DNA of 64,000 nucleotides from the NCBI GenBank assembly GCA_947490345.1, contig CANLGL010000002.1, forward strand, positions 1 through 64,000, written 5' to 3'. Position 1 is the stretch's first letter. Every line of letters starts with the position of its first letter. This document shows, in pieces, positions 31,815 to 47,130 of the stretch. The stretch is from Deltaproteobacteria bacterium (GTDB taxonomy: Bacteria; Myxococcota_A; UBA796; SXON01). The notes below the pieces were generated by a model, which saw nothing but the letters and a program-made list of their open reading frames with translations, ran no database searches and was not told the DNA's origin. The position numbers were made by a program, and so were the translations under genes.

Positions 31815-32033
31815 CTACTCCCCCCCCACCGCCTCCACCGGGCAGCTTTCCACCGCGAAGACGAACAACGACGCCTCCTCGGGGCGATGCTCCTTCACGT
31901 ACGCTTTGCGCTCAGCGTCGCGGCCGAAGATTTCCGGGGAGATGTCGGTGCAGGTGTCGCAACTGATGCAGTTGAGGTCCACGTACCAGGGGCCGGGCGC
32001 GTTCTGGGGATGCTTCTTGGCTGGATCGGGCAT
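31815..32033 (-). CDS. Single-cluster [4Fe-4S] ferredoxin
   Basis: A 72-aa ferredoxin: CISCDTCTDISPEIF supplies three cysteines and VESCPVEA the fourth. The ATG at 32033 (MPDPAKKHP) fits the family; the longer open frame is Ala/Pro-rich and unlike a ferredoxin. It lies 13 bp after the stop of a radical SAM gene on the same strand, so it probably supplies electrons to the radical SAM clusters of this locus. Confidence 0.82.
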   Translation of the reverse strand: MPDPAKKHPQNAPGPWYVDLNCISCDTCTDISPEIFGRDAERKAYVKEHRPEEASLFVFAVESCPVEAVGGE

Positions 32034-32046
32034 CGGGACTCCGGGG

Positions 32047-33141
32047 CTAACGGGCGCCGCGCACGATGCGCGCGCTCTCGGCGTGGGCCCGCTCGTCGTG
32101 GGCACCTGAAACACTGGCGCCGCCTGGGCTGCGGAGGCCATGGTCGTCGGGTTGCTCGTCGCTGCGGAGACCCCGCCGGGCGAGGATGCGCTCGATGAGC
32201 TCGGGCTCGGGCTCGCGACGCAGCACGGCGCGCATGACGGCCACCGGGTCGCCGGGCACGGGGAAAAGCTCCGCGGGGTCGTAGTGGTAGTTCATGCTGT
32301 ACAAGCCGGCGCAGACCGGGTCGAGGGCGCAGGCGTCACAGGCCGGACTCTTGCCGTGCAAGAACTGCTTCTGGAGAACAAAACCCTTCTTGTCGAGGAA
32401 GCGGATGCAGCGCTCCTCTTCCTTGACGATCTTGCGCGTCTCCGTGGAGCAATGGGCGAACTCGGGCATGTAGCAGAGCGGCACCCGCTCAGCGCGAAAA
32501 CTCCGCCCGGTCCTGGCGATGTGGCGCATGGCGCGGCGCAGGCTCAGCTCGAACTCGCCAAGACGAGGAATCACGTCAGGGTTGCGCTCGGCGCGGTTCA
32601 TATTGGGGTCCATGTTGTTCCACACGAAGTGGCGCACATGGGGATGACGCTCGATGATCCACGCCACCGTCTCGTCGAGGTGGTCGCTGTTGTAGGCGTT
32701 GATGACCGTGTTGATGTCGGCCGTGATGCCGAGGTCGGCGACGTGGAACAAGGCGCGGTCGATGTTTTCGTGGCTGCCCGCGGTCTGGGTGACAAAGTCG
32801 TGCACGATCGGCCGGCTTGAGTGCAGGCTCAGGTGGAGGTGGGTGAGCCCGGCCTCGACCAACGCGGCGAGAAAGGGCCGGTCGCACACCCGCTGGCCGT
32901 TGGTGATCATCCGGATGAACAGGCCGTGGGCGTGGGCGTAGTGCACCGCCGGCAGCAGGAGCGGCGCGATCGTGGGCTCGCCGCCGGTGAGGATGATGCC
33001 ATCGTAGCCGCGGGCCACGAGGTCATCGATCGACTCGCGCATCTCGACGTCGCTGAGCTCGACGCCGCTGGGCGGGTTGGAACAGAAGCGGCAGGCCTGT
33101 TTGCACTCGCGAGTGAGCTGGAGGTAACCGAGGTTGGCCAT
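32047..33141 (-). CDS. Radical SAM protein with C-terminal three-Cys motif
   Basis: A 364-aa radical SAM enzyme. C13-KQA-C17-RF-C20 binds the SAM [4Fe-4S] cluster and TGGEPT (about residue 51) binds SAM. A C-terminal CDACALDPVCAGLYSMNY, an x2/x5-spaced three-Cys motif, probably holds an auxiliary cluster and recurs in other radical SAM proteins of this locus. The last 50 residues are charged and variable. Its ATG overlaps the stop of the preceding radical SAM gene (TGATG). CSNPPSG after the cluster is somewhat like HxsC, but the rest does not match well enough to name it. Confidence 0.85.
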   Translation of the reverse strand: MANLGYLQLTRECKQACRFCSNPPSGVELSDVEMRESIDDLVARGYDGIILTGGEPTIAPLLLPAVHYAHAHGLFIRMITNGQRVCDRPFLAALVEAGLTHLHLSLHSSRPIVHDFVTQTAGSHENIDRALFHVADLGITADINTVINAYNSDHLDETVAWIIERHPHVRHFVWNNMDPNMNRAERNPDVIPRLGEFELSLRRAMRHIARTGRSFRAERVPLCYMPEFAHCSTETRKIVKEEERCIRFLDKKGFVLQKQFLHGKSPACDACALDPVCAGLYSMNYHYDPAELFPVPGDPVAVMRAVLRREPEPELIERILARRGLRSDEQPDDHGLRSPGGASVSGAHDERAHAESARIVRGAR

Positions 33142-34880
33142 CAGCTACGGCGCCCGGCTTCAGTGTCGACGAAGGGCACCGGCGGGTGCCCGGAAACCGG
33201 GAATCGCGGCGCCGGCGAAAGGGGCGGTGCACCGTCCGCCAGCCTGGGCGCGGGGCCGCCGGCGGGCCACGCGGCAAGCTGTTCCGCGGCGTCGATCGCC
33301 CACTCCCCGGCAAGGGGCTGGAGTTGCGCGAAGCCGTGGGCGCGGATGCTCTGGAGGTGTTGCCCGCCGCATCGATCGCTGACGGGGCAGGCGCGACAGC
33401 GAAGGGACTTGGCCCGGTAGTGCGTGGAGATGTACTCGTCGACGAAGGCGTTGACACCCCACCGGCCATCGTCGTGGAAAAGCTCGGTGTGCAGGACGCG
33501 TGGTGTGGGAAGCAGCACCGTCCCCGGAGCCAGGCAGGCGGGGAGGTTCTCGACCTGCACCCGTTGGTTCAGCGCGAGGAAGAAGGCGCGCCAACCGGGA
33601 TCTCGCTCTTTGGACTCGCGCGCGGTGGGGCGGGTAGGCGCGTGGAAAACGTCGTCCGGGTGAAGGTGCTCGGGGTGCTCCAGGAGCCAGGCGCAGAGGG
33701 CCTGATCGAGGCGCAGCTCGACGGCGGTGCCCGCGCTGAGGGCGGCGCTGCGGCGGGCGTCGGCGAGCTGCTCCCAGCGCTCGACCACGATGCGCGAGCC
33801 GGCGGGGAGGGGGCGCGCATCCAGGGCGGCGGCGGGGACGCGGAGCGGGCGGTTCAAGAGCGCGGGGAGCGTGGTGACGCCCAGCCAGCGGGTGCCAGCG
33901 GGTGCCAGGGTCGCGACGTCATGACGCTCGCCAACCTCGAAGACATCGAAGGCCCCTCGCTGAGCGCGAGCGACGTGCCGATCGAGCGCCGAACAGAAGG
34001 GCTCGATGAAGCAGTGCGGGCAGCGGGCGGCGTCACGACAGTCGATGGCCACGCCCTCGTCGAGGTAACGTCGGAATTGCACGCGGCGGCCGCCGACCTC
34101 GTCGAGCATCTTGTGCGGGTCCTGGATCAGCTCCTCCAGGCCCTCGAGGTGCTGGACCGGGAAGCGGTTGGTCCAGATGTGGAAGCCGGGCACGCGGGCG
34201 AGGCGGAAGACCTTGCGGAGGTCGTCGGCGTGGGCGTCGACATCGTAGAACAGCTCGTCACGGTTGTCGAAGGCGACGCCTTGCGGGATCACATGGAGCA
34301 GGTCGAACTCCCTGACGCCGACGCGCGAACAGAGGGCGACGATGGCCTCAAGATGGCGCACGTTCTGCTTGTTGATGCACACGTCGACGTTGACGATGAC
34401 GCGGCCATCGCGAACGGCGCGGATCATCGCACGCATCAGGTTGTCGAAGCCGTTCTTGGTCTTGGTGAGCCGATCGTGGAGCTCTGCAGTGTGGCCGTGA
34501 AGCGAGAAGGTGATCTCGTCGAGCCCGGCGTCCACCGCGGCGAGGAAGAAGTCGCGATCGGCGAGGCGTTGGCCGTTGGTGACGGTCTGCACCCAGCGGT
34601 AGCCCTGGGTCTTGGCGAAGCGTACGGCGTCGTGGAAACGCGGGTGGATCGTGGCTTCGCCGCCACTGACGACGAGGCGGCTGGCGGCCTTTTCGTCGCG
34701 ACCGCGCCGCACCTCGACGCAGATGTCTTCAAAGCTCATGAACCGGCCGTCCTGCGCCTCGGCGTCGAGGCAGAAGATGCACTTGCTGTTGCACGCCGCG
34801 GTCAGACGCACCCAGTGCTTGGATTCGTTGGCGACCGACTCGTGGTCCAGGGTGACGTCGAGCGCCGCGTCCATGGCCAC
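33141..34880 (-). CDS. Large radical SAM protein with two auxiliary Cys regions
   Basis: A 579-aa enzyme. C30-NSK-C34-IF-C37 binds the SAM cluster; SGGEATIHPR (Ala for the usual Pro) is the SAM-binding motif. A mid-protein CRDAARCPHCFIEPFC and a C-terminal CRACPVSDRCGGQHL give two further clusters or metal sites. At least 200 residues longer than its neighbours, because a domain of unknown role lies between the two Cys regions. The start is GTG 34880 or ATG 34874. It heads the radical SAM / ferredoxin operon and is divergent from the HExxH hydroxylase gene. Confidence 0.85.
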   Translation of the reverse strand: MAMDAALDVTLDHESVANESKHWVRLTAACNSKCIFCLDAEAQDGRFMSFEDICVEVRRGRDEKAASRLVVSGGEATIHPRFHDAVRFAKTQGYRWVQTVTNGQRLADRDFFLAAVDAGLDEITFSLHGHTAELHDRLTKTKNGFDNLMRAMIRAVRDGRVIVNVDVCINKQNVRHLEAIVALCSRVGVREFDLLHVIPQGVAFDNRDELFYDVDAHADDLRKVFRLARVPGFHIWTNRFPVQHLEGLEELIQDPHKMLDEVGGRRVQFRRYLDEGVAIDCRDAARCPHCFIEPFCSALDRHVARAQRGAFDVFEVGERHDVATLAPAGTRWLGVTTLPALLNRPLRVPAAALDARPLPAGSRIVVERWEQLADARRSAALSAGTAVELRLDQALCAWLLEHPEHLHPDDVFHAPTRPTARESKERDPGWRAFFLALNQRVQVENLPACLAPGTVLLPTPRVLHTELFHDDGRWGVNAFVDEYISTHYRAKSLRCRACPVSDRCGGQHLQSIRAHGFAQLQPLAGEWAIDAAEQLAAWPAGGPAPRLADGAPPLSPAPRFPVSGHPPVPFVDTEAGRRS

Positions 34881-34983
34881 GAAGGTAGCACGCTATTTCC
34901 AAATGGGGGGAGAGTCCGCAGCGGCCTCTCCCCCTACCGGGGCGTCCCCTCCGGCCGCCAACCTGCGGTTTCCGGCCTGCGGT

Positions 34984-35010
34984 GCGCGGCGCGCTGGCAG
35001 CGCGCCGCGC
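34984..35010. promoter_or_regulatory. Perfect 12-bp hairpin between the divergent radical SAM and hydroxylase genes
   Basis: GCGCGGCGCGCT (34984-34995), a GGC loop and the exact complement at 34999-35010. There is no T-tract on either strand, so an intrinsic terminator is unlikely. The divergent intergenic region 34881-35103 has no other clear signal; this may be an operator or an mRNA structure ahead of one of the genes. Confidence 0.4.
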
Positions 35011-35103
35011 GCGCCCCTCTCCCCCTCACCGCAGCCCCCATGGCCGGCAGCATGGGTGGGTATTTAGCGGCGATTCCCGCGCGCGCCCGACTTAGCTTGC
35101 AAC

Positions 35104-36243
35104 GTGGCCTACCCCTCTGCGCCCTACACCTGGCCCTGCCCGCCCATCGACGCGCTGGGACCGTGGCGAAACCGGCAGCTTCGGCAGTTGGCGCGGCGGC
35201 TGCTCGACTGGCCGCATCCGCTGGCCCCCTGGGCGCTTCACGCGTGGCAGCAGGTGCGCGAGCCGCTGGCGCGGGTGCTGAAAGAAGCGCCAGCCGTCTT
35301 TTTGGGGAGCCTCGCCCTGCCTACGATCGCGGCGCCGCTGGCCGGAGGGGACCTCATAGGCGCCGTACCGCACCTGCTCCTGGAGCTGGCGCGGCGTGGG
35401 GTGCTCGGCGAGCACGGAGTCTTCTGGGGAGCTCCCGTCTACCGGTTGGTAAGTCCGGCGCTTGGCGCCGACCGTGTTTTCTCGCCGCCGCTGGTGGGAA
35501 TGCTGTTTCAGAACGGAATCGTGGCGTTGCGGCCCACCGATGAGTGGGTGCTGGCGCCCGAGCCGGACGCCCGCGCCTGGCCCCTGGCCCACGGCGGCTG
35601 GCTCTTGGGCGCCGACACCAACCCGCTCGCGATGGTTGAACTGCATCCCGACAAGGACGGCAACGCGCTCTCGTTCGGCGAGGCGCCGGCGGAGCAGTGG
35701 GTGACCGCGATCGATGAGGCGCGCGCGCGGATCGCCACCTTCGCGCCGGAGCTCGCCGCGGAGCATGCCCAGGTCCTGGCCGGGGTGGTCCCGGTGGGGA
35801 CCCACGGCGAAAAGAGCCTGTCCGCGTCGTACCAGGAGGCGATCGGCCTGGTGTACCTGTCGTTGCATCCCAGCTCGGTGACGATGACCGAGGCGCTGAT
35901 CCACGAGGTGCAGCACAGCAAGCTCAATCTGCTGTCGTGGAGCGACCTGATCGTCGAGAACCACACCCAGCTCTACGCCAGTCCGGTTCGGCCAGATCCA
36001 CGGCCCCTCTGGGGGGTGCTTCTTGCGGCACACGCGTTTCTTCCGGTGGCGCGACTCCATCGAGCCATGCTCGAGGCGGGGTCGCCGGACGCCGACCACG
36101 AGCGCTATCTCGCGGTATGCGAGCTGAATCACGAAGCCATGGAGGTGCTCAGGGAAGCGGCGAAGGCTACCGATGCCGGCGCCCCGGTGTTGCGAGGCAT
36201 GGACGAGCTGGAGCGCGCCATGTGGAGCGAGCGCGCGTCCTGA
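35104..36243 (+). CDS. HExxH-type peptide beta-hydroxylase (mod_HExxH family)
   Basis: A 379-aa protein starting at GTG 35104. Near residue 262, EALIHEVQHSKLNLL holds HEVQH (His267, His271), followed by ENHTQLYASPVRPDPRPLWG and AHAFLPVARLHR. This HE-x-QH-x-KL...RPDPRP pattern is that of the HEXXH peptide-modification family, whose members were shown to be iron/alpha-ketoglutarate peptide beta-hydroxylases and which accompany radical SAM enzymes in peptide gene clusters. It is not a protease despite the motif. The likely substrate is the repeat peptide of this locus, by position only. Divergent from the two radical SAM genes. Confidence 0.82.
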   Translation: MAYPSAPYTWPCPPIDALGPWRNRQLRQLARRLLDWPHPLAPWALHAWQQVREPLARVLKEAPAVFLGSLALPTIAAPLAGGDLIGAVPHLLLELARRGVLGEHGVFWGAPVYRLVSPALGADRVFSPPLVGMLFQNGIVALRPTDEWVLAPEPDARAWPLAHGGWLLGADTNPLAMVELHPDKDGNALSFGEAPAEQWVTAIDEARARIATFAPELAAEHAQVLAGVVPVGTHGEKSLSASYQEAIGLVYLSLHPSSVTMTEALIHEVQHSKLNLLSWSDLIVENHTQLYASPVRPDPRPLWGVLLAAHAFLPVARLHRAMLEAGSPDADHERYLAVCELNHEAMEVLREAAKATDAGAPVLRGMDELERAMWSERAS

Positions 36244-36272
36244 CGGCGCCGAAAAAACGCAAAAAACGTTAT

Positions 36273-36353
36273 GTGGCGAAATGCCGCATCGGACCGGACG
36301 CCGCGCTGATCGTGGCGACACAACGGTGACCCGCGGGAGTGACATTTTGCCAC
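36273..36353. promoter_or_regulatory. Inverted repeat upstream of the EAL-protein gene
   Basis: GTGGCGAAATGCC (36273-36285) and GACATTTTGCCAC (36341-36353) are inverted copies with two mismatches. They lie in the 142-bp gap before the ATG at 36386 and could be an operator. A weak call; the gap is otherwise unremarkable. Confidence 0.3.
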
Positions 36354-36385
36354 AGGTTCGGTAAAACAGGCCGACCCAGAGAAAC

Positions 36386-38962
36386 ATGCCTCGGCTCGTC
36401 GCTTCGCTCTGCCTCCTCGCCGGTCTGGCCTGGGTCGCTATCTCCGGCCGGCTCGCATGGATGGAATTCGCCTATCTCGTCATCGCCGCCGCGACGTTGT
36501 ACGCGGGGCTCCGGCGGTGGGAGCGTCAGCAACTACGGGCGGCCGCCAGGGAGGCCCAGCAAGCAGCGGAGTGGCACTCGATCTTCGAGTCGGCCCCCGT
36601 TCCGATGTGGCTCGCCTGCGCCAGCGGTCGAATCGTCGCCGCGAACACCGCGCTTGCCGATGCCCTGGGATTTCATTCGAGAGAGCTGATTGGGCGCCCA
36701 GCGACGGACCTGCTCGACCCAGCGGACGTCAGCCGGGCCTACGCCGCGGCAACCCTCGGAGAGCGGGCGCCCGTCGGCATCTTCCGGTACCGGACCGCGG
36801 CCGGCGGCCACATCGTCGCCAGCACGCACACCTCGGCGCTGGTGCGAGAGGGATCGCTCTGCAACCTCGTGGCCTTGGAGAACGTGACCGAGCTTCGGGC
36901 CGCGGAGCGTCTGTTGGCCGAGCGGGAAGCGACCTTCCACGAGCTGCTCGGCGCGATGACCGAGACGGTGTGGATTGGTGATGTTGCCGACTACCGTACT
37001 CTGTATTGCAGTCCGGCCGTCGAACGCATCACCGGTTGGACCGCTGCAGAGCTCCTGGACGGGCGGGTGAGCTGGGCCCAGATGGTGCACCCCGAGGACC
37101 TGGCCGGAGTGATTCCCCGTCTCGACGCGCTCGTGGTGGACACGCCGGCGAGCAGCGAGGTGCGAGTCGTCCGGAAGGACGGCCGGGTGATCTGGATCGA
37201 GAGCTCGTCGGTCCGCGTTTCGGGCACGGGGGGAGCGTCGGACCGTATCGTCAGCCTCGTGAGCGACGTGACGGTGCGCCGCGGCGCCAACGAAGACGCG
37301 CGCCTCGCACAAGTTGTTTTTCAGCGCGCCCGGGAGGGTATCGTCGTCACCGATGGCGACCTGCGAATCCTGCGCGCGAACGCGGCGTTTGTGGCGCTGA
37401 CGGGCGAGGTGCCGGTCACAGCGCCAGACGGAGAGCCGAGGTTCTTGTGCGCCAAGCTCGCGGATCCCGACATCATGGCTCAGCTCCGGAGCTCCTTGGC
37501 GGCCACCGGCGCTTGGCGTGGCGATATCTGGTGCCGGACAGTTGGGGGGGACCCCTTTTTGGCGAGCCTCTCGATCACCTCCGCACCCGGCGAGTCAGGG
37601 GCTCCCAGTAGATTCGTAGGCGTGATGAGCGACGTCACCGCGTCGCGTCGCGACGCCCTGCGAATCGAGAGGCTCTCGCGCTTCGATGCGGTCACCGGGT
37701 TGCCCAACCGGCAGGCCTTCGAGCAGCGGGTCACCGAGGCCTGCACCGGCGCGGACAACGGCGGCGCAGTCATCGCCGTCGGTCTCGACCGCTTCAAGGC
37801 GATCAACGACACCCTTGGCCACCAGGCCGGAGATGCCTTCCTCGCGGAGATCGCCGAGCGGATTCGGACTGTACTCTCCGCGGGGGAGACGGTTGCGCGC
37901 CTACAGAGCGACATTTTCGCGGTCTGGGTGCCGCTGGCGGCCTCCCCCGCGGGCGCGGCGGAGCGGATACTCGCGGCGGTCGCGGTTCCCTTTGAAGTAG
38001 GGTCCGCCTCGATTCACCTGACCGCGAGCGCGGGGCTGGCGGTCTACCCCGAGGATGGCGTGAGCGCCGCGGACCTGGCCCGCCACGCCGAAACCGCGAT
38101 GTTCCACGCCAAGAGCCTGGGCCGGGACCGCGCCGTGCGCTTCACCCCCCAGTTGGAGCAGGCGGTGAGCGAACGGCTCTCGCTTGAGTCCCGCCTACGC
38201 CGTGCGCTCCAGCGCGGCGAGTTCGTCCTGCACTACCAGCCGCAGGTGTCCCTCCGTTCTGGGGCCTTGACCGGCGTGGAGGCCCTCGTACGCTGGGAAG
38301 ACCCCGAACTTGGTCTGCTCCCGCCGGCGAACTTCATTCCCGCCCTGGAGGAGGCCGGACTCATTCTGCTGCTCGGCGGATGGGTTTTGCGAGAGGCGTG
38401 TGCGACGGCGTCTGCCTGGCATCAGGCGGGGGAGCCGGTCCTCGTGGCGGTCAACATCTCGGCGCTTCAGTTCCGTCAGCCCGACTTCGTCGAGGGCGTC
38501 GCCGCCGCGCTGGTGGAATGCGGCCTGCCACCGCACCTGCTGGAGTTGGAGGTGACCGAGGGCGTGGTCATGGATGGCGCCAGCGGGGTGCGAGCGACGC
38601 TGGTGCGGTTGCGTACGCTCGGCGTGCGCCTCTCGATCGACGACTTCGGCACCGGCTACTCGTCCTTGGCTTACCTGCGGCGCTTTCCCATCGACAAGCT
38701 CAAGATCGACCAGAGCTTTGTGCGAGACATGCTCTGCGACGCGGACGCGGCCGTCATCGTCGGCGCGATCGTGCAGCTGGGGAAGGCTCTCCGCCTGGAG
38801 GTCATCGCCGAGGGCGTGGAGGACGAGGCGCAGGCGGCGCTCCTGGCGAAGATCGGCTGTGACGAAGCCCAGGGTTGGCTTTACGCCAAGGCGATGCCCG
38901 CGACTGAGTTCGAGGCGTGGCGCCACCTTTACGCTGCCCGCGTCGGGGTGCAGGCGGGGTAG
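36386..38962 (+). CDS. Membrane PAS-GGDEF-EAL protein, degenerate cyclase domain
   Basis: An 858-aa protein. Two N-terminal helices (about residues 1-50), PAS domains at about 65-170, 180-300 and 310-415, a GGDEF domain at about 430-590 and an EAL domain at about 600-850. The GGDEF signature is replaced by QSDIF (RLQSDIFAVW), so cyclase activity is probably lost. The EAL domain is complete (VEALVRW, EVTEGVVMD, DDFGTGYSSLAYL, EGVED), so it should be a c-di-GMP phosphodiesterase. No obvious partner within the peptide locus. Confidence 0.88.
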   Translation: MPRLVASLCLLAGLAWVAISGRLAWMEFAYLVIAAATLYAGLRRWERQQLRAAAREAQQAAEWHSIFESAPVPMWLACASGRIVAANTALADALGFHSRELIGRPATDLLDPADVSRAYAAATLGERAPVGIFRYRTAAGGHIVASTHTSALVREGSLCNLVALENVTELRAAERLLAEREATFHELLGAMTETVWIGDVADYRTLYCSPAVERITGWTAAELLDGRVSWAQMVHPEDLAGVIPRLDALVVDTPASSEVRVVRKDGRVIWIESSSVRVSGTGGASDRIVSLVSDVTVRRGANEDARLAQVVFQRAREGIVVTDGDLRILRANAAFVALTGEVPVTAPDGEPRFLCAKLADPDIMAQLRSSLAATGAWRGDIWCRTVGGDPFLASLSITSAPGESGAPSRFVGVMSDVTASRRDALRIERLSRFDAVTGLPNRQAFEQRVTEACTGADNGGAVIAVGLDRFKAINDTLGHQAGDAFLAEIAERIRTVLSAGETVARLQSDIFAVWVPLAASPAGAAERILAAVAVPFEVGSASIHLTASAGLAVYPEDGVSAADLARHAETAMFHAKSLGRDRAVRFTPQLEQAVSERLSLESRLRRALQRGEFVLHYQPQVSLRSGALTGVEALVRWEDPELGLLPPANFIPALEEAGLILLLGGWVLREACATASAWHQAGEPVLVAVNISALQFRQPDFVEGVAAALVECGLPPHLLELEVTEGVVMDGASGVRATLVRLRTLGVRLSIDDFGTGYSSLAYLRRFPIDKLKIDQSFVRDMLCDADAAVIVGAIVQLGKALRLEVIAEGVEDEAQAALLAKIGCDEAQGWLYAKAMPATEFEAWRHLYAARVGVQAG

Positions 38963-38970
38963 ACGGTGGC

Positions 38971-39603
38971 GTGATCGTTGCCATCCACGGCCTGCCTACC
39001 TCGCCCGCGTTGTGGTCCAGGTTGGGGCTGCCCATCGACGCGCCCAACCTCCCCGGCGTGGATGACGACCAGCCCTTCTCGATCGCGGGGCTGGCGGCCA
39101 CCCTCGCGGAGCGCGTCGACGAGAACACGGTGATCGTGGGCCACGACCTGGGCGGGCCGGTGGCCGCCCTGATCGCCTCGTCGCGACCAGTGAAGGCGTT
39201 GGTACTCTCCGGAAGCGCGCTGGGACCGTACTGGTGGATGGTGCGGTCGACGGCGCTGCCCCTGGTCCAGCGCTACTTCTACGAGCGGCACGCGGGTCGA
39301 AAGTTCCTGAGGGGGAGTGTGTCAGCGGCGTTGGGCGACGAGGCGGTCGCCGCCTTTCCACCCGTGCCGCCGGCCCGGATGCGGGCGATCGCGCAGGGGA
39401 TGCGCCCGCCGCCGCTGGCCATCCGCTGCCCGGTTCACCTGATCTGGGGCCGTCGCGACCGGTGGTATCCGCCGTGGGTGGCGCAGGCGCTCGGGCGGCG
39501 ATTCGGTGTGGCCGTGCGTTGGGTCGAGGGCGGGCACCTTTGCATGTGGGAGCACCCCAGCGGCTTCGCCGCGGCGCTCAGCTCGGCGCTCGAATTACCG
39601 TGA
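38971..39603 (+). CDS. Alpha/beta hydrolase with Asp-type nucleophile elbow
   Basis: A 210-aa hydrolase starting at GTG 38971, 8 bp after the upstream stop. The nucleophile elbow is GHDLGG, an Asp instead of Ser, as in epoxide hydrolases and haloalkane dehalogenases. An acid (WGRRDRWYP) and a His (EGGHLCMWEHP) complete the triad. The oxyanion-hole HGLPTS is intact. The cap domain is small. Its 3' end overlaps the end of the convergent radical SAM gene by 26 bp. Substrate unknown. Confidence 0.7.
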   Translation: MIVAIHGLPTSPALWSRLGLPIDAPNLPGVDDDQPFSIAGLAATLAERVDENTVIVGHDLGGPVAALIASSRPVKALVLSGSALGPYWWMVRSTALPLVQRYFYERHAGRKFLRGSVSAALGDEAVAAFPPVPPARMRAIAQGMRPPPLAIRCPVHLIWGRRDRWYPPWVAQALGRRFGVAVRWVEGGHLCMWEHPSGFAAALSSALELP

Positions 39604-40633
39604 GCCCCAAACGTTCGGCGTCGCGGATGAGCCCGGCGACGTCGGGAAGCGGCTCGACGAGGCGCGCGACGCGGGCGCCCCTCGCCTGGGCCTGCACCAT
39701 CTGCTGCCGCAGCGTCCGACTGGTGGCCCCGGCCGCCGTCGACAAGACGATCTCGACGCCCTCCGCGTGGACGGCTCCGACCGGCCGAAGCTCGCCGTGG
39801 CCCCAGCGGCGAAGGTATGCGGCTTCCACGCCCGGGCAGGACGCGCGTAGGGAGCAGCCGTCACAGGGCGCCGGGTACGCCCGCGCTTCCCGAGTGACCG
39901 CCCCTGCGACATAGACACGATCGGCCTCGCGGACCGTGGGTCCATCAGCCAGCAGCGGCCGCAGCTCCCCCGCCAGACAGGGAGGCAGCCCCGCCAACTC
40001 GAGGTCCAGGCCATGGTGGCGGGCGCGCTCCGCGGCGGGGACGAGCGCCTCGGCCGCCGCCGACCAACGCGGCGCGAGCATGCGCGCCTCGGTGAGTGCG
40101 GCCCCCTCCTCGCGGCAGAGCACCATCCGCATCGAGCCGGCGCCCACCGCGTGGGCGAGGTCCACCATCCCGGCCAGTTGCGCGCTGTTCGCGCGGGTCA
40201 CGACCACGCCGACCCGCACCGCAAGCCCCGCCGCGATGGCCTGCTTCGCGGCGGCGACCACCCGGCGAAAGCTCCCGGGCGTCGCGGTGTGCCAGTCGTG
40301 GACGGCGGCGGTCGTCCCGTGAAGCGCGAGGGCGACGGCGTCGAGCCCCGCCTCGGAGAGCGCCCTGGCCGCTCCTGGCGCCGCGAGGATCTGACCGTTG
40401 GTCTGGAGCGCCAGCTTGCGGAAACCTAGCTGACGTGCGGCTCGCAGGAGCATCGGCAGCCCCGGGCGCAGGGTGATCTCACCCCCCGCCAAGACCAGCC
40501 CCTCGCGATGCGGGAGCGCCTGCATCGCGGCGATCACCGCGTCGTGGTCAGCGTCCCCGGCGAGGCCTACCTGGTCACAGAAGCGGCAGGCCTGGTTGCA
40601 GGCGGTGCCGACGCGGAGGTCGGTCCAGCGCAC
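39578..40633 (-). CDS. Radical SAM protein with C-terminal three-Cys motif
   Basis: A 351-aa enzyme starting at GTG 40633 (longer in-frame starts exist but lack family residues). C12-NQA-C16-RF-C19 binds the SAM cluster; LAGGEITLRPG has Ile-Thr in place of Pro-Thr. The C-terminal CDGCSLRASCPGVEAAYLRR matches the x2/x5 motif of the other enzymes. It lies 365 bp downstream of the Hxs run, behind an inverted-repeat region, so it may be transcribed separately. Its tail of about 60 residues is unlike the others. Confidence 0.82.
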   Translation of the reverse strand: MRWTDLRVGTACNQACRFCDQVGLAGDADHDAVIAAMQALPHREGLVLAGGEITLRPGLPMLLRAARQLGFRKLALQTNGQILAAPGAARALSEAGLDAVALALHGTTAAVHDWHTATPGSFRRVVAAAKQAIAAGLAVRVGVVVTRANSAQLAGMVDLAHAVGAGSMRMVLCREEGAALTEARMLAPRWSAAAEALVPAAERARHHGLDLELAGLPPCLAGELRPLLADGPTVREADRVYVAGAVTREARAYPAPCDGCSLRASCPGVEAAYLRRWGHGELRPVGAVHAEGVEIVLSTAAGATSRTLRQQMVQAQARGARVARLVEPLPDVAGLIRDAERLGLTVIRAPS

Positions 40634-40697
40634 TAGATGTCCGAGGGGGGAGGGTCCGCGGATCCGGACTTCCCGGCGGCCCCTCCCGTTTCCCACC

Positions 40698-40904
40698 GAC
40701 TATGCCCCCGAAAATGCGCGTCGCTGGCGACTATCCCCATCAGGATGCGCGCCCGGCGCTTGGTCGCCTCGGCGCCGAGGGGGTGCCCGGCGCAAAAGCC
40801 AGGTTCGCTCGTTCCCCACGACGAGGCGCGCCGCCGGGCCGGGCGCGTGACGCGCATTTCAGGCTGCTTACTCCCCGGGCTCGCGCATTTCGGGGGGCAT
40901 AGTC
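40698..40904. repeat. Nested inverted repeats in the gap between radical SAM genes
   Basis: The gap 40634-40998 contains GACTATGCCCCCGAAA... at 40698-40719, a degenerate copy at 40729-40752, and the opposite orientation at 40849-40876 and 40883-40904. The outer pair matches at 20 of 22 bases. The arrangement could form a large cruciform or a long-range hairpin terminating the Hxs transcript. The motif resembles the 21-bp repeats at 301-502. No gene is visible in the gap. Confidence 0.55.
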
Positions 40905-40998
40905 GGTACGCCGGCCACGGGGCGCGCATCGCACGCGGGTCTCCCACGCCGCGCCGTCCTTTCATGATCCTGGGAGCTCCAGTACGCGGCACGGGGAA

Positions 40999-42048
40999 CT
41001 ACTTGATCGCACGAAGTTCGCTGTCGCCGTGGATGGGGAGGTAGTTCTTCCAGACGCCCTCGCACACGTTGCCGTAGCGGCAGCCGGTGCAGCGCGCCTC
41101 GGGCTGGGCCTTCAGATCGTAGCGCTTCCGGTCCTGCCAGTTGAAGCGGGCCCGGCCGTCCTCGATGGTGGCGATCCCGTCGGGAAAACCGTCGCTGGTC
41201 AGGGTCTTGATCGAACAATCGGTGTCGAGATCGCGGAACTCACCGACGTAGCGCCGCGCGAGACCCTTGCTGCCAATGAGCTCCGGGGGGAGCACACACA
41301 GCGGAAAGCTACCGAGCGTCAGGTTTTTCTTGAAGTGGTACTCGTTGAGGAGTACTGCCTTCATGACGTAGGGCACGACGTCGCTGAGCTTGGGGATGAG
41401 CGAGGTGTCCGTCTCGGCGTAGCCCTCGGAACGCACGAAGTTCAGGCGAACGTCGTCGAGCCCGAGATCGAAGAAGAAGCGAACGATCTGAGGCAGATAT
41501 TTGTAATTCCAGGCGTTGACCACGCAGTTGACCGACACGTTGTCGGCCAAGAAGCCCTCGGCCTTCTTCTTGAGCAGATACTGGAGTCCCGACTTCTTCT
41601 TCTCGAAGTTGCCCGGCACGCGGGTGAGCGCGTCTTCCAACTTGGGGTTGTGTCCGTGCATCGACATCGTGACCCGAGTGAGTCCAGCGTCGAGGATGCG
41701 GTCCACGAATTCGTGTCGGAAAAACTTTGTGCCGTTGGTGGCGACGGCGATGCGGGTGTAGCCGAGCTCGCGGGCGAAGCGGATCGCGTCGAGGATCCAC
41801 GGGTAGGTTGTGGGTTCGCCGCCGAGGAAGCCCACGGAGCGGGTTCCGCTTTCGTACCAACGCTGAATCTCAGCCTGCATTTCCGGGTAGGGCATGTACC
41901 GGCGCATGTCGGTGGCCGGGAGCCCATCCAGGCAGAACACACACTTGTTGTTGCAGATCTTCCCGACGTTGATCTCGACGTTCTTGCGGGTGTCGCGCCA
42001 GATGTCGCCACCCTGGACCGGCTCGGTCTGTAAGGCGGGGATGTTCAC
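40999..42048 (-). CDS. Radical SAM protein with C-terminal three-Cys motif
   Basis: A 349-aa enzyme starting at GTG 42048, which overlaps the preceding stop (GTGA). C32-NNK-C36-VF-C39 and LGGEPTTYP are the radical SAM core; MSMHGHNPKLEDAL is a typical beta-strand/loop element. The C-terminal CTGCRYGNVCEGVWKNYL followed by a glycine-containing end carries the shared auxiliary-cluster motif. Last gene of the eight-gene run. Confidence 0.86.
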   Translation of the reverse strand: MNIPALQTEPVQGGDIWRDTRKNVEINVGKICNNKCVFCLDGLPATDMRRYMPYPEMQAEIQRWYESGTRSVGFLGGEPTTYPWILDAIRFARELGYTRIAVATNGTKFFRHEFVDRILDAGLTRVTMSMHGHNPKLEDALTRVPGNFEKKKSGLQYLLKKKAEGFLADNVSVNCVVNAWNYKYLPQIVRFFFDLGLDDVRLNFVRSEGYAETDTSLIPKLSDVVPYVMKAVLLNEYHFKKNLTLGSFPLCVLPPELIGSKGLARRYVGEFRDLDTDCSIKTLTSDGFPDGIATIEDGRARFNWQDRKRYDLKAQPEARCTGCRYGNVCEGVWKNYLPIHGDSELRAIK

Positions 42049-43001
42049 GCAGACACCATGGGAACGAGCTCCTCGCTGCCGTACAGTTCGACATAGCGCG
42101 CGAACACGCCGTGACACAAGCGGTTCCAACTACACGATCCGCAGACAGCGGGCTGGGCGCGCTTTCGGTCGGGCGTCCAGGAGTAGATCCCCTCCAGCGA
42201 GACGCGATCGGGGTGGCGCGTCCATTCGAAGGTGACGCGCGGATTCCAGTGCAGGTCGTTCGCAAAGACGCTGTCCGCACCGAGCGCGCAGACGGGGAGT
42301 CCGAAGAAACGCACGATCATCGGGCCGGCTTCGGCGATGATCTGCCGTACGAGCGGGCGAACCTCGTCCAAACGCAGAGTCAGGTCTGCGTAGGCGTTTT
42401 CGCCTGCACCTTCGGGGGTGACGTTGCTGACGACCAGGAGCTCGGCGCCGCGGGCGCGCGCGAGCGCGGCCGTTTCCACGATGCGAGCGGCGTTCTGGCG
42501 CACGAGCACGGTGTTCACGAACAGGCGGAACCCCGGGTGGGCGTGGGCGTTGGCCATGGCACGCTCCAGACGGTCGAAGCTGCCGGGCCGACGGGTCTGC
42601 GCGTCATGGGTCGCGACGTCGGGTCCGTGGAGGGAAAACAGCCCCTCGTCAAGGTAGGGCAGCGCGCGGGCGGCGAACTCCGGGTCAGCGAGGCGGGTGC
42701 CGATGGTGCCGATGCTGGTCCGCATGCCCAGCTTCTTGGCGAGCTGGAGGATTTCCACGAACTGCGGGTGGATCGTCGGCTCGCCCCCGGTGAAGTGCAC
42801 CGCTTCGACGCCGCGCTCGGCCTGCTCGCGAAGCACCCGCGCCACCCGGCCGAAGGTGACCGGAAACGACGAGTAGTCCGCCATCCTCGTCTCTTCGGAG
42901 CAGAAGGTGCACCGCTCGGGGCAGTGGTAGGTGATGTGGAACTCGAGACGCCGCATCGCCTGCCCGGTGACCGGGTGCAGCCAGGGTGCGCCGGCGGTCA
43001 C
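42045..43001 (-). CDS. Radical SAM protein with C-terminal three-Cys motif
   Basis: A 318-aa enzyme. C27-PER-C31-TF-C34 and TGGEPTIHP define the core; FSLHGPDVATHDAQT is the conserved mid-barrel segment. CGSCSWNRLCHGVFARYVEL is the C-terminal motif shared with its neighbours. Start and stop both overlap adjacent genes (ATGA and GTGA), so it is translationally coupled within the Hxs run. Confidence 0.87.
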   Translation of the reverse strand: MTAGAPWLHPVTGQAMRRLEFHITYHCPERCTFCSEETRMADYSSFPVTFGRVARVLREQAERGVEAVHFTGGEPTIHPQFVEILQLAKKLGMRTSIGTIGTRLADPEFAARALPYLDEGLFSLHGPDVATHDAQTRRPGSFDRLERAMANAHAHPGFRLFVNTVLVRQNAARIVETAALARARGAELLVVSNVTPEGAGENAYADLTLRLDEVRPLVRQIIAEAGPMIVRFFGLPVCALGADSVFANDLHWNPRVTFEWTRHPDRVSLEGIYSWTPDRKRAQPAVCGSCSWNRLCHGVFARYVELYGSEELVPMVSA

Positions 43002-44026
43002 TTGGTGATCACCTTTCGGCCACGATGCTCGAAGTACGCCGGGTAAAGCCGGTTGCAGAGCCGGGTCAGGCAGGCGTCGGCCTGGGCGGTGGCCTCCATG
43101 ATCGCCGGGCCGAGGGTGTCGGCGAGGATCTGTCCGGCACGGGCGCCGCCTTCGGCAAGCTCGGCCTCGGACGGGGGATTGTCCAGGGTTCCGGTGGCGG
43201 TCGCGGCCCGGACGTGGTCGAGATTGCCGGCGAGGACCAGGTTGTTCCCGTAGATGCGCCGGTCGCAGTCCACCACGAAACCGGTGTTGTAGAACGCGAC
43301 GGGCGCCCGCACGAAGAGGTTGCGCAGGTAGAGCTGTTCTCCTTTGGCCCAGGCGCCCTCGATGTCATCGGCGATCTGGTTGAAATTGTCCTCCAGGGCC
43401 GCCAGCTGTTCGGGTTTCCATGGCAGATAGTAGCCGGGGAGCAGGTTGAAGCGCTTCACGCCGAGGCTGCGGAGGTAGCGGAAGTTCTCGGCCGCGCGCA
43501 CCGCGGTGGACGGCGCGATCGTCTGGGTGACGACGAAGCGAGGCAAACGCAGAAGGGCCGGTAGCTTGGCCACCAGCGCATCGTGGGAGGGGGCACCCCG
43601 CCGCAGGCCGTCGTGGTCACGCGCCTTGCCGTCGAGGCTGAGGGTCAGCGTGACCTGGGGGCGCATGTAGAGCCACCGCAGCCACCCCTCATCCAGGTGG
43701 GTGCCGTTGGTCGAGAGGTAGACCGACACGCTGGGCGGGGCGGCGTTGACCACGGCACGGACGACGTCGGGCACCAGGAGCGGCTCGCCACCGAAGAGCT
43801 TGCAGTCGCCGCCACCGTGGCGCTCGACGAAGAGCGTGAGCGCCCGCTTGGCGTCCTCGATGCTCAGGTCGGGTTCGCCGTCCTTGACCGTGGGGCAGTA
43901 CGCGCAGCGAAGATCACAGCGGCGCGTGACGACGAGGATAAGGGCATTCTGCCAGCGATTAGCGTGCCAGCGGTCGGCGCGCGCCGCCCCGGCGCTACCA
44001 CTGCCCGTGAGAGCCGTGGCTGCCAT
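42998..44026 (-). CDS. Radical SAM maturase candidate immediately downstream of the repeat substrate
   Basis: A 342-aa enzyme. C37-DLR-C41-AY-C44 and LFGGEPLLVPD form the radical SAM core. The C-terminus has only CLTRLCNRLYPAYF and not the x2/x5 motif of the other enzymes, so its auxiliary-cluster content differs. The ATG at 44026 lies inside the end of the HxsA-like gene (32-bp overlap); longer forms run into the repeat and are unlikely. It occupies an HxsC-like position but lacks the HxsC-like CSQPP sequence, so I do not call it HxsC. Confidence 0.8.
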   Translation of the reverse strand: MAATALTGSGSAGAARADRWHANRWQNALILVVTRRCDLRCAYCPTVKDGEPDLSIEDAKRALTLFVERHGGGDCKLFGGEPLLVPDVVRAVVNAAPPSVSVYLSTNGTHLDEGWLRWLYMRPQVTLTLSLDGKARDHDGLRRGAPSHDALVAKLPALLRLPRFVVTQTIAPSTAVRAAENFRYLRSLGVKRFNLLPGYYLPWKPEQLAALEDNFNQIADDIEGAWAKGEQLYLRNLFVRAPVAFYNTGFVVDCDRRIYGNNLVLAGNLDHVRAATATGTLDNPPSEAELAEGGARAGQILADTLGPAIMEATAQADACLTRLCNRLYPAYFEHRGRKVITK

Positions 44027-44462
44027 GTGATCCGTGCGAGCCGTGCGACCCGTGGGAGCCGTGGGAGCCGTGGGAGCCGTGGCTGCCGTGGGAGCCGTGG
44101 GAACCATGGGAACCGTGTGAGCCGTGTGAGCCGTGGGAGCCGTGGGAGCCGTGGGAGCCGTGGCTGCCGTGCGACCCGTGGCTGCAATGTTGGGCCAGAA
44201 GGACCGCGCTGCTGTCGGGGGCGTTGCCCTTCCGATCGAGGAACGCCGGGTCGAGTTCGAGCTCGCCCGCGGTGGCCTGAAGGAGCAGGAGGGACTGGGC
44301 GACCACGTCGCCTTTCTGGTTGGCGGCCTGAAGCTCGCCGGCCTGGAGCAGGTGGCTGGCCTGGCGCTTTAGCACCGGGAACTCGGCCTCGGCGGCCTGG
44401 TCGTCCCAGTCAGCTCCCGACTTTTTGCCGGGGAAAGGGGTGCGGATGTCGTCTTTGCTCAT
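43995..44462 (-). CDS. hxsA: HxsA-like substrate with twenty Ser-His-Gly repeats
   Basis: A 155-aa protein: a helical, charged leader of 93 residues, then S94-H-G repeated twenty times and a terminal Gln-Trp. His-Gly-Ser is a His-Xaa-Ser unit, the hallmark of HxsA, the proposed substrate of the HxsB/HxsC radical SAM maturases. There is no signal peptide. The ATG at 44462 overlaps the hxsB stop (ATGA). Ser is written with both TCN and AGC codons and Gly and His with varied third bases, so the peptide sequence is conserved while the DNA drifts. Modification and function are unknown. Confidence 0.85.
   Translation of the reverse strand: MSKDDIRTPFPGKKSGADWDDQAAEAEFPVLKRQASHLLQAGELQAANQKGDVVAQSLLLLQATAGELELDPAFLDRKGNAPDSSAVLLAQHCSHGSHGSHGSHGSHGSHGSHGSHGSHGSHGSHGSHGSHGSHGSHGSHGSHGSHGSHGSHGQW
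44004..44183 (-). repeat. Twenty-copy 9-bp coding repeat (Ser-His-Gly)
   Basis: In-frame tandem of a 9-bp unit within the substrate gene, ending two codons before the stop. Units differ at synonymous sites (CAC/CAT, GGC/GGG/GGA/GGT, TCC/TCA/TCG/AGC). All copies encode the same three residues. Confidence 0.9.
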
Positions 44463-45982
44463 GAGGTCACCTCGCTGGCAGGCACGTACGGGGTCGTGCC
44501 CGGTCGCGAACGTTGGATGGTCCACCGGCGGAAGATCCGTTGAAGGCTCCCGTCGGTGTCGGTGGAGAGTAGCTGGTAAAGGTACTGTTGCACACCGTAG
44601 AACTCCTGGCATTTGCGCGAAAGCGGCCGCTGCCCGAAGATGTCTCCGTCGAACATGTAGTTGTGGAGCGGTTGGACGCCGCAGGTGGCCTTGTGCACGC
44701 AGCTGTGACAGGCCGGCAGGGCGTCTTGAATCGAGGCGACCGCCAGCGCCTTGACCGTGGGGTGCTTCAGCACCTCGTCCATGCTGGATGTGTCGACGTG
44801 ACCGAGCTTGAAGAAGTCGTTCCCCATGTGCGCGGCCATGCGCCCTTCGTCGTCGGTGTACACGCTGCCATCGAAGTTGTAGGCGAGCTGGGCGCTTCCC
44901 GAACCGCAGGGTGAGCGGCAGTCACTGTAGTTGGGGTCGTCGGGCGTGAGCATCTTGGTGAGGAAGATCGACGCGAGTCGTTCCTGCACGAAGGTGCCCT
45001 GGCGGTTGAGCTCGATGATGTAGTCCAGCGTGCTCTTGTAGAACGCCAGGAACTCGTCCATCGAGTAGCCGATCTGCTTCCAGGTGTTGACCGCGAAGCC
45101 GAAGGGGTTCAGTGGCCGCAGATGAATGCTGCGAATGCCGCGATTGACGTACTCATCGACGATTTCCGGGCCGCGACTGAGCGAATGGCGCGTGGTGGTC
45201 ATCAGCGCATCGACGTGGAACAGGTCGGGGTCAAAACCGCGCCGCACCCATTCGGCGTTGAACTTGTCCATCCAAGCGGTGACCGCGGCGTGGGAGCTGT
45301 GCTTTTCCATCCAGCCACGGTTCTTGTCGTGCAGATCGGCCGGGCCATCCAGCGAGGTGCAGACCATCACGCCCTTATCGAGGAGGTAGTTCATCTTCTC
45401 GTCAGTCATCAGGGTCAGGTTGCTGACGAGCGAGAGGAGGAGTTCCTTGTTTTCGTACCGGTTCTTCTCCAGGGCGTAGTCGCAGACGAAGCGGATGACC
45501 TCGAAGTTGGCGGTCGGCTCGCCGCCTTGAAACTCGAAGCCGAGCACCGGCGTGGGCGAGGTGAACGCGAAGTCGACGACTTTGCGTGCCGTCTCCAACG
45601 ACATGTCGGTGTCAACGCGGTCCATGTCGGCGCGGCTGGCGTGGCAGTACCGGCAGGAGTGGTTGCAGCGCAGCGTGGTGACGATGGCGTGCAGGTGCGG
45701 TCCGTTCAGGAGGAAGGCCTTCTTCCGGCGCAGCTTGTCGGCGAGACCGTCCAGATCGAGCTCGTGCTTGAAGAAGTAACGACGCCGGAGTTGGTCGTAG
45801 AGCGGCTCGCCCCGGTCGATTTGTCCAGCGAGGAAGCGGTGGAAGTCGGCCGGGTCCAGAAACAGGTGCTCGCCGACGTCGTTGGTCATCAGCACCTGAC
45901 CGTTGACGACGCCATAACGGAAATATCCGACGGTCTTGCGGTCGAAGGCGCGCGGGTCGACGGTGAGTTCGGTGTTCATCAT
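44459..45982 (-). CDS. hxsB: HxsB-type radical SAM/SPASM maturase
   Basis: A 507-aa radical SAM enzyme with a SPASM domain. The N-terminal TVGYFRYGVVNGQVLMTND segment is typical of HxsB. C106-NHS-C110-RY-C113 binds the SAM cluster; FQGGEPTANF is the SAM-binding motif. SPASM cysteines lie in SDCRSPCGSGS and CHSCVHKATCGVQPL, plus a late RKCQEFYG. HxsB enzymes are thought to modify the His-Xaa-Ser repeat of HxsA. ATG 45982 overlaps the stop of the small HxsD-like gene, and its stop overlaps hxsA. Confidence 0.88.
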   Translation of the reverse strand: MMNTELTVDPRAFDRKTVGYFRYGVVNGQVLMTNDVGEHLFLDPADFHRFLAGQIDRGEPLYDQLRRRYFFKHELDLDGLADKLRRKKAFLLNGPHLHAIVTTLRCNHSCRYCHASRADMDRVDTDMSLETARKVVDFAFTSPTPVLGFEFQGGEPTANFEVIRFVCDYALEKNRYENKELLLSLVSNLTLMTDEKMNYLLDKGVMVCTSLDGPADLHDKNRGWMEKHSSHAAVTAWMDKFNAEWVRRGFDPDLFHVDALMTTTRHSLSRGPEIVDEYVNRGIRSIHLRPLNPFGFAVNTWKQIGYSMDEFLAFYKSTLDYIIELNRQGTFVQERLASIFLTKMLTPDDPNYSDCRSPCGSGSAQLAYNFDGSVYTDDEGRMAAHMGNDFFKLGHVDTSSMDEVLKHPTVKALAVASIQDALPACHSCVHKATCGVQPLHNYMFDGDIFGQRPLSRKCQEFYGVQQYLYQLLSTDTDGSLQRIFRRWTIQRSRPGTTPYVPASEVTS

Positions 45983-46212
45983 GTGGAGATGCCCTTGCGG
46001 GCGAGGATGGTTTCGAAGAGGGCGTGGTTGGAGAGCTCGTCGCCGAGGCGGGCGCGGACGCTCTCCCGAAGGGGGACCGCGCTGACGAGCCAGTCCGCAT
46101 CGGACTCGCCGAGGGTGATCGCGCCCAGGGCGGCGAAGCGCTCAGCGGCACGCCGGACGGCGTCGCCCAGGTAGAGCGACTTGTGAAAGCGGAGCGCGAG
46201 CGGTTCAGCCAC
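45979..46212 (-). CDS. Second, short HxsD-like protein
   Basis: A 77-aa protein starting at GTG 46212. AVRRAAERFAALGAITLG and LGDELSNHALFETILARKG resemble the two conserved helices of HxsD, spaced by an ADWLVSAVPL strand. It overlaps the HxsD gene by 8 bp and hxsB by ATGA, which supports expression. An HxsD duplicate would be unusual; it may be a recognition subunit for another maturase. It is too short for strong family assignment. Confidence 0.6.
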   Translation of the reverse strand: MAEPLALRFHKSLYLGDAVRRAAERFAALGAITLGESDADWLVSAVPLRESVRARLGDELSNHALFETILARKGIST

Positions 46213-46642
46213 CGGGGGTCTTTTCCCACGGCACGGGAATGTCCAGGTCGTCGCTGGCCATCTCTTCCGCATCCAGCTCGGCGAGCAGTCGGTCGATGGT
46301 GGAGGGCCCCTCGGCCGAGAAAAGCGCGCGGGCCATGATGAACTCGCGAAGCCGCGCGTTGCTTTCGCCAATCTGTTTGCGGAGAGCCTGGTTGAGGAGC
46401 TCGTTGGCGAAGTGGCCGGCGAGCGCGTGAAGCTCGTCCTCGGAGGCCGCGGCGCGGGTGCGGAGCACCACCTGCACTCGCCGATCGGCCTCGCGATCCA
46501 GGTAGACGTAGCAGCGGTCGATGAACAGGTAGGCGGCGCCCATCACCACGTCGAGATCGTAGATGGATTCATCCACGGAGAAGCGCACGCGCCGCTCTCC
46601 CAGCTCGGTGGTGACGCCATTGTCGGGGGTTTCGTCGCTCAT
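46205..46642 (-). CDS. hxsD: HxsD-type recognition protein
   Basis: A 145-aa protein. RFSVDESIYDLDVVMGAAY, LFIDRCYVYLDREADRRV and a C-terminal NELLNQALRKQIGESNARLR helix fit the HxsD family, small partners of HxsA/B/C. It probably binds the substrate leader, as RRE-like partners do in other radical SAM peptide systems; that role is inference. Start overlaps the upstream Tat-protein stop (ATGA). Confidence 0.8.
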   Translation of the reverse strand: MSDETPDNGVTTELGERRVRFSVDESIYDLDVVMGAAYLFIDRCYVYLDREADRRVQVVLRTRAAASEDELHALAGHFANELLNQALRKQIGESNARLREFIMARALFSAEGPSTIDRLLAELDAEEMASDDLDIPVPWEKTPGG

Positions 46643-47130
46643 ACGGAGGGGGCCCCCGGCGCCATGCGCAGACTCGCCGCGGCCATCGAGTCAGGGTGCG
46701 CCCAGACCCGCTGGGTGTGGGGGACGAGGTCCACGATCCGATCGAGGTCCATGCTTTCGTTGTCAGCCGCCACGGCGGCCAACCGACGCGTGACCCGACC
46801 CAGCGATTCGTCCATCGGCGCGGTGCCGTCGCCGCCGTCCATGACGATGAAGTCGAGCAGCGGCGTGCTGGCGGGACCGCGGGCGGCGCCATTGCGCAGA
46901 CAGACGTCCACGCGCGCAACGCGGCCGTCCGTGTGCAGCAGATTCAGGGTGATCGCCCCTTCGTGTGGCGGGAAGATCCGCTGCAAGCTCCAGCCCAGGC
47001 CCAGGTCGGCGCCCGGCCCCAGCGGATGGAACAAGAACGCCGGCGGGAGGGCCGCCAGGGCTGAGCCGGGCACGGCGACCACGGCGATGCCGAAGAGCGC
47101 CTGACGGAGGAAATTTCTGCGACTGTTCAT
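46639..47130 (-). CDS. Small Tat-exported protein heading the Hxs operon
   Basis: A 163-aa protein starting at ATG 47130. MNSRRNFLRQALFGIAVVAV followed by an AxA site (SALA) is a twin-arginine signal, so the protein folds in the cytoplasm before export. The rest has IFPPHEGAITLNLLH, RVDVCLRNGAA and LLDFIVMDGGDGTAP. It does not resemble a known enzyme in my memory. Its stop overlaps hxsD. A cofactor-bound or modified exported partner of the locus is plausible. Confidence 0.7.
   Translation of the reverse strand: MNSRRNFLRQALFGIAVVAVPGSALAALPPAFLFHPLGPGADLGLGWSLQRIFPPHEGAITLNLLHTDGRVARVDVCLRNGAARGPASTPLLDFIVMDGGDGTAPMDESLGRVTRRLAAVAADNESMDLDRIVDLVPHTQRVWAHPDSMAAASLRMAPGAPSV

Follow-up and report, generated by a model that had tools for sequence, protein, structure and literature searches.

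In the 64,000-nucleotide stretch analysed here (the window; positions 1 to 64,000 of contig CANLGL010000002.1 from a Deltaproteobacteria bacterium), the span 31815-47130 probably encodes a system devoted to maturing a single His-Xaa-Ser (Hxs) repeat protein of the HxsA4 type, in which lineages of radical S-adenosylmethionine (SAM) enzymes have expanded; we give this reading a probability of about 0.7. The span holds the genes for a (Ser-His-Gly)20 substrate, HxsB, HxsD, a second HxsD-like protein (D2), six further radical SAM enzymes (R2 to R7), a ferredoxin, an alphaKG-HExxH-type peptide beta-hydroxylase and a twin-arginine (Tat-type) protein, in a window whose G+C content is 68.7%. A preliminary description, made from the letters alone, had proposed an expanded Hxs locus with this inventory, and profile searches bear it out. 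HxsA4 (NF038313, 117.6 bits, cut-off 55), HxsB (TIGR03978, 494.9 bits, cut-off 370), HxsD (TIGR03976, 65.5 bits, cut-off 50), D2 (NF038315, 53.1 bits, cut-off 41) and the hydroxylase (TIGR04267, 87.9 bits, cut-off 40, with a HEVQH motif) all lie above the curated NCBIfam cut-offs. Seven radical SAM proteins, HxsB and R2 to R7, match Pfam PF04055; the whole genome (G000) has 54 such domain matches, these seven included. Since NCBIfam holds HxsA4, HxsC4 and HxsD-like families, this type of system had already been noticed by curators.

The substrate (43995..44462, minus strand) has 155 residues, a leader followed by C(SHG)20QW. Its 20 SHG units are encoded by 11 different DNA units that use both serine codon families, and since these 11 units give one and the same peptide unit, the repeat is kept by selection at the amino-acid level. 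We surveyed 79 distinct substrates, namely that of the window and those of loci L029-L230 (L numbers denote loci and G numbers genomes). A cysteine stands directly before the first repeat unit in 69 of the 79, and the third position of the SHX units is Gly 1197 times, Ala 26 times and Ser three times, in arrays of 4 to 49 units. Forty substrates end in SW and 35 in QW, while the four that stop in GS, SH or HG were taken as contig edges; where the tail is complete the last residue is Trp in 75/75, always as QW or SW. At L080 there are two substrate genes, one with 19 and one with 42 SHG units, and a further twin-arginine gene separates the pair. In some SW substrates (L222, L223, L227-L229, L263) the leader contains a signal-like hydrophobic segment that the substrate of the window does not have.

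The genes from 47130 down to 40999 form one minus-strand run: the twin-arginine protein (46639..47130), HxsD (46205..46642), D2 (45979..46212), HxsB (44459..45982), the substrate, R2 (42998..44026), R3 (42045..43001) and R4 (40999..42048), with every junction overlapping by 4-32 bases. R5 (39578..40696, minus) lies 302 bases beyond R4. Further on, R6 (33141..34880), R7 (32047..33141) and a small 4Fe-4S ferredoxin (31815..32033; Fer4_13, 48.1 bits), all on the minus strand, are likewise tightly packed. Four starts were assumed from candidate start codons: GTG at 46212 for D2, ATG at 44026 for R2 (overlapping the substrate gene), GTG at 42048 for R4 and ATG at 32033 for the ferredoxin, whose open frame extends to 32141.

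Conservation and co-occurrence

The full order from the twin-arginine gene to the ferredoxin is kept in 7/7 relatives of the genus and family whose stretch spans the cluster (L029, L031, L035, L036, L039, L040, L042). Among 58 genomes, the window's own counted, HxsB was present in 32: 11/11 of the genus, 5/11 of the remaining family and others from the order. Outside the family but within the order, R6 and R7 are often found on the opposite side of the HxsD gene. The HxsB collection comprised 183 sequences including that of the window, reduced to 135 distinct ones, six of which come from canonical plasmid loci. A comparable locus stands on L134, a contig titled Schekmanbacteria, where HxsD and HxsB accompany a substrate of the SHG...QW type and seven more radical SAM genes.

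Co-occurrence was then analysed in 282 genomes from the phylum, together with 14 control genomes. HxsA4 exceeded its cut-off in 89/282 genomes (152 had any match at E 0.001), HxsB was matched in 97 at E 1e-60 (96 over the cut-off), R6 in 93 (1e-60), R2 in 35 (1e-25) and the twin-arginine family in 73 (1e-8). The 14 controls gave an HxsA4 match in one genome (none over the cut-off) and no HxsB or HxsC4. HxsA4 and HxsB share 86 of the 282 genomes, R6 and HxsB 88, HxsA4 and R6 81, and R2 and HxsB 33; the list of HxsA4 genomes used for these overlaps agrees in number with the tally of 89. HxsA4 without HxsB was found in G053, G172 and G252, and R6 without HxsB in these three plus G026 and G270, that is, in 5 of the 185 genomes that lack HxsB. 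All 73 genomes with the twin-arginine family hold HxsB or R6. The preliminary description had asked whether the genes might be neighbours by chance. Neither of its two refuting conditions came true: the HxsB and HxsD profiles hit above cut-off, and in other genomes too the extra enzymes are found together with the repeat gene. Because the gene order is kept in genus and family and HxsA4, HxsB and R6 nearly coincide, the locus is not a chance neighbourhood. G112 provides a natural contrast to the HxsA4-type system: its locus L152 carries HxsD, HxsB and an HxsC that is canonical-type by tree, and the genome is without HxsA4 over the cut-off and without R6.

Metagenome bins titled 'Klebsiella pneumoniae' also carry such loci (L073, L104 and L126, with HxsB 75%, 85% and 45% identical); these titles are most likely mislabels, as perhaps are 'Rhodobacterales' (L088) and 'Oligoflexia' (L095). 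A relative of hxsB also occurs on 339 plasmid records, of which 315 are from Klebsiella and 270 are typed as conjugative.

Ancestry of the radical SAM enzymes and the two tail types

On sequence evidence, the HxsB and HxsC lineages seem to have expanded to give the radical SAM set, and the HxsD family to have multiplied too: HxsB and R2 would form the HxsB side, and on the HxsC side R7 would be nearest to canonical HxsC, followed by R3 to R6. The best NCBIfam model is HxsC4 or HxsC for each of R3 to R7 (for R3, HxsC4 with 92.9/500 bits; for R5, HxsC4 with 83.5 and HxsC with 70.2 bits, both below cut-off) and the PapB ranthipeptide maturase model for R2 (NF047865, 83.7 bits, below its cut-off of 340). 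R2 to R7 remain below the cut-off of every model among the best 25 of the 34-73 that each protein matched, and we do not file them as HxsC or HxsC4 members.

A tree of 415 radical SAM sequences separates R3 to R7 plus HxsC from HxsB and R2, with six canonical HxsC proteins adjoining R7 (weakly, 0.43). We also built eight outgroup trees, in sets of one, four and three, using 6 or 16 outgroup sequences; most of these came from the same genome, and E. coli MoaA and AslB were added in the second and third sets. In seven of the eight, R7 and canonical HxsC are sisters, with supports of 0.966 in the first set, 0.942, 0.903, 0.922 and 0.79 in the second and 0.936 and 0.881 in the third. R3 to R7 and HxsC form a group free of outgroups in 6/8 trees, and in the single tree of the first set R2 joins HxsB with a support of 0.999.

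The motif CX2CX5C was found in 33/35 R3, 27/28 R4, 69/81 R5 and 45/45 R7 sequences and twice in 37/38 of the R6 group, as well as in 7/7 canonical-type HxsC and 134/135 HxsB proteins; the motif scan found it absent from 36/38 R2-group sequences. The three-Cys motif previously noticed in five of the extra enzymes is thus confirmed in R3 to R7 and extends to HxsC. Two other statements of the preliminary description stand in part. It had seen no HxsC, and indeed none passes the curated cut-off, but R7 is the sister of canonical HxsC in most outgroup trees; and the extra radical SAM enzymes, present as described, are not unconnected, since R3 to R7 group with HxsC in six of the eight trees and R2 is nearer to HxsB and other SPASM-type enzymes.

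R2 is also linked to the tail of the substrate. Counting only loci whose sequence continues for 2 kb or more past HxsB (34/39 QW and 16/18 SW loci), we found R2 at 33/34 QW loci and at 0/16 SW loci. The first count was 32/34, and was raised because the single open frame in L081, which is R3 first, also scores 326.5 bits on R2. Three genomes (G152, G180, G212) carry both tail types, with R2 solely at the QW locus, and in 20 chosen stretches around SW substrates away from HxsB neither R2 nor another cluster gene was found within about 8 kb. Divergent R2-like genes occur at L108, L170 and L183, three loci without a visible substrate.

Counter-evidence, alternatives and neighbouring genes

Several observations weigh against a dedicated and expanded HxsA4 system. 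Beyond the genus, HxsB is found in just 5/11 genomes of the family; in several families the substrate gene is far from the enzyme genes, and of the 97 HxsB genomes 11 are without HxsA4 over the cut-off and nine without R6; the Fisher P of about 1e-55 for the overlaps treats the genomes as independent though they are related. Regarding the tails, the QW locus L090 is without R2, the R2 match of L083 is in pieces, and the genome of L108 has a SW substrate elsewhere while the divergent R2-like gene sits at L108. The association has also to be read with kinship in mind, as 38/39 QW loci fall within one HxsB clade, the remaining one being L134. Regarding ancestry, no window protein passes the HxsC model (TIGR03977, cut-off 267.9; best R7 with 83.9 bits) or the HxsC4 model (NF038332, cut-off 500; best R4 with 158.8 bits over model positions 11-333 of 335), and two annotated HxsC proteins, used as controls, reach 381.5 and 401.7 bits on the former. 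The outgroup trees resample one sequence set and hence are not independent, and one repeat tree of the third set fails to unite R7 with HxsC. In 2/8 trees, three of the 16 outgroups enter the HxsC-side group; AslB groups with R2 and HxsB in 3/3 trees of the third set, one outgroup joins them in 3/4 trees of the second, and R3, R4 and R5 are neither cleanly separated nor always each monophyletic.

The alternative that survives best is that the extra R enzymes were recruited independently, being SPASM/twitch radical SAM proteins that are alike through a common core and not paralogues of HxsC. None of them reaches the cut-off of HxsC or HxsC4, they also match many unrelated radical SAM models, and the deep nodes of the trees are modestly supported and shift between runs. 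However, HxsC or HxsC4 is the best model for each of R3 to R7, the CX2CX5C tail is common to HxsC, and the sisterhood of R7 and HxsC recurs in 7/8 outgroup trees; we consider independent recruitment doubtful.

A second alternative, which we regard as improbable, splits the locus into separate neighbouring pathways: the genes from the twin-arginine protein through HxsD, D2, HxsB, HxsA4, R2 and R3 to R4 would be the Hxs unit, and R5, the HExxH enzyme and R6-R7-ferredoxin would act elsewhere. The spacing allows this, with a gap of 302 bases between R4 and R5 and an interval of 4.7 kb, occupied by other genes, between R5 and R6, as does the position of R6-R7 across HxsD in other families of the order and of R6 and HxsB on different contigs elsewhere. 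Nevertheless, R6 is present in 88/97 HxsB genomes against 5/185 others, R7 is the sister of HxsC in 7/8 trees, and L265 has the substrate, an R4-like gene, R6, HExxH and an R5-like gene consecutively, all of which favour the single dedicated system.

The least probable alternative makes (Ser-His-Gly)n mainly a metal-binding or collagen-like rod, with the radical SAM enzymes limited to trimming or capping it, or else serving another protein: glycine at every third residue yields a Pfam collagen match (39.3 bits, cut-off 27.2) and low-complexity PDB collagen matches, histidine at every third residue would suit metal binding, and the repeat number varies from 4 to 49, but the collagen matches are due to the Gly spacing alone in a repeat without Pro, seven radical SAM enzymes would be odd for a mere cap, and the H-G-S order, terminal Trp (75/75) and preceding Cys (69/79) point to recognition by enzymes.

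Between R5 and R6 the plus strand carries an alpha/beta hydrolase (38917..39603) and a PAS-GGDEF-EAL protein (36386..38962), both assigned by Pfam, and the HExxH hydroxylase (35104..36243). Apart from the window, L029 alone of the 36 loci L029-L064 (several of them cut by contig ends) has matches to the first two; we judge these two genes interlopers, and they seem to be mere neighbours of the system.

Proposed working, known systems and significance

The data show which genes are present, the families they belong to, their conserved neighbourhood and co-occurrence, their places in the trees and the R2/QW association; the working scheme that follows is inferred in its chemistry, step order, leader binding, export and function. 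The leader would be bound by HxsD and D2, which would hold out the (SHG)n core to the enzymes. HxsB with R7 would then install a basic modification in every H-G-S unit, most plausibly a bond formed by radical chemistry between or near His and Ser, and R3 to R6 may carry out further oxidations. The HExxH enzyme would beta-hydroxylate the His or a neighbouring residue, R2 may act at or near the C-terminal Gln-Trp, the ferredoxin would supply electrons, and the twin-arginine protein could be exported as a partner of the product. Our preferred guess, by analogy with three-residue cyclophanes, is that a radical reaction cross-links His and Ser within every H-G-S unit. HxsB with R7 may work as HxsB with HxsC does, and the HExxH protein as ChlH does.

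For HxsD an RRE-type leader-binding domain, whose fold is a winged helix, was considered. The predicted fold of HxsD is beta-beta-alpha-beta-beta-alpha, and the model weakly resembles chain K of RNA polymerases. Most of the HxsD proteins aligned are extended at the C-terminus, with a DDPLGIAVPWEEK-like motif there, and this is absent from the canonical rows L145, L147, L148 and L152.

The preliminary description called the twin-arginine protein Tat-exported; its signal scores 14.9 bits on TIGR01409, just below the cut-off of 16.7. The RR pair is present in 36/36 aligned homologues, rows chosen partly by this motif, with some matches to the family listed without it. The protein has no Pfam match, its NCBIfam match is limited to the signal, and a structure comparison with its model gave no convincing solved relative. 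A second gene of this family stands near a substrate gene in L080 and beyond the substrate in L082, and the adjoining second copies suggest that the protein is a direct partner of the substrate. General profile scans of the locus genes named no leader peptidase and no peptide transporter.

The beta-hydroxylase assignment, already made in the preliminary description, has ChlH (8s5f, E 1.1e-4) as its sole solved match. The available part of PMC12636437 describes an HExxH enzyme that beta-hydroxylates Asp and His on a cyclophane peptide and needs the preinstalled cyclophane, and enzymes (PflC/PosC) that hydroxylate Gln runs and cut the backbone. Since the only solved match is ChlH and the enzyme of that study acts on Asp and His, it is a reasonable guess that the HExxH protein hydroxylates the repeat His. 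ChlB/ChlH likewise combine a radical SAM enzyme, a cyclophane synthase whose core is one of the five PDB matches of the window HxsB, with an alphaKG-HExxH beta-hydroxylase on one peptide. Their domains are fused, according to the same part of PMC12636437, whereas the window has separate genes, a (SHG)n substrate and six more radical SAM enzymes.

Canonical Hxs systems (hxsA or hxsA2, hxsD, hxsB and hxsC, as in Paraburkholderia pSYMBR3459, L145, and Nostoc p057_G, L147) also have a repeat substrate, HxsD and HxsB, and their HxsC is the relative that seven of the eight outgroup trees place beside R7. They have two radical SAM genes in contrast to the seven of the window, and within about 6 kb no relative of D2, R2-R6, HExxH or the twin-arginine protein was annotated or matched. 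The HxsC4 family offers another comparison. Its model is passed in 16/282 genomes, all of them also on the HxsB list, and in G196 the HxsC4 gene lies next to HxsA4 and R6, in the order substrate, R4-type HxsC4, R6, HExxH, R5-type (L265). HxsC4 therefore belongs to the same kind of system, and R4, far below the cut-off, is its distant relative; the substrate of G196 ends in SW and not, as in the window, in QW.

The TVG system, which yields a poly-cyclopropylglycine peptide, also applies a radical SAM system to a repeating core, with a different repeat; in the classification of PMC9062424, HxsB and HxsC each have a separate cluster (2 and 33), distinct from that of TVG (40). A Pseudomonas genome paper lists hxs genes in its accessible part (PMC8446631). 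No product of an Hxs system was described in the literature searched, with subscription journals mostly outside the coverage. The preliminary description's view that the locus cannot be linked to a described product is consistent with this, but its substrate belongs, by cut-off, to a named NCBIfam family, HxsA4.

The locus offers a repeat of a single unit, seven related enzymes and relatives that differ in single enzymes; its two types of tail are distinguished by a single residue and, for the most part, by a single enzyme. Since it combines one repeat unit with related enzymes and natural variants, it is a good test bed for the roles of HxsB and HxsC and for how several enzymes share one substrate. 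It also adds a twin-arginine family that has no Pfam or NCBIfam match beyond its signal and that, in the 282 genomes, was seen only with this system. Going further, it is possible, though we hold this only tentatively, that the seven enzymes arose by duplication of HxsB and HxsC and make a dense, multiply modified rod, with R2 devoted to QW, QW and SW marking two product types, and the rod carried together with a twin-arginine partner of its own. If so, the product would belong to the myxobacterial envelope, in a structural or a metal/redox role, and would not be a small diffusible peptide.

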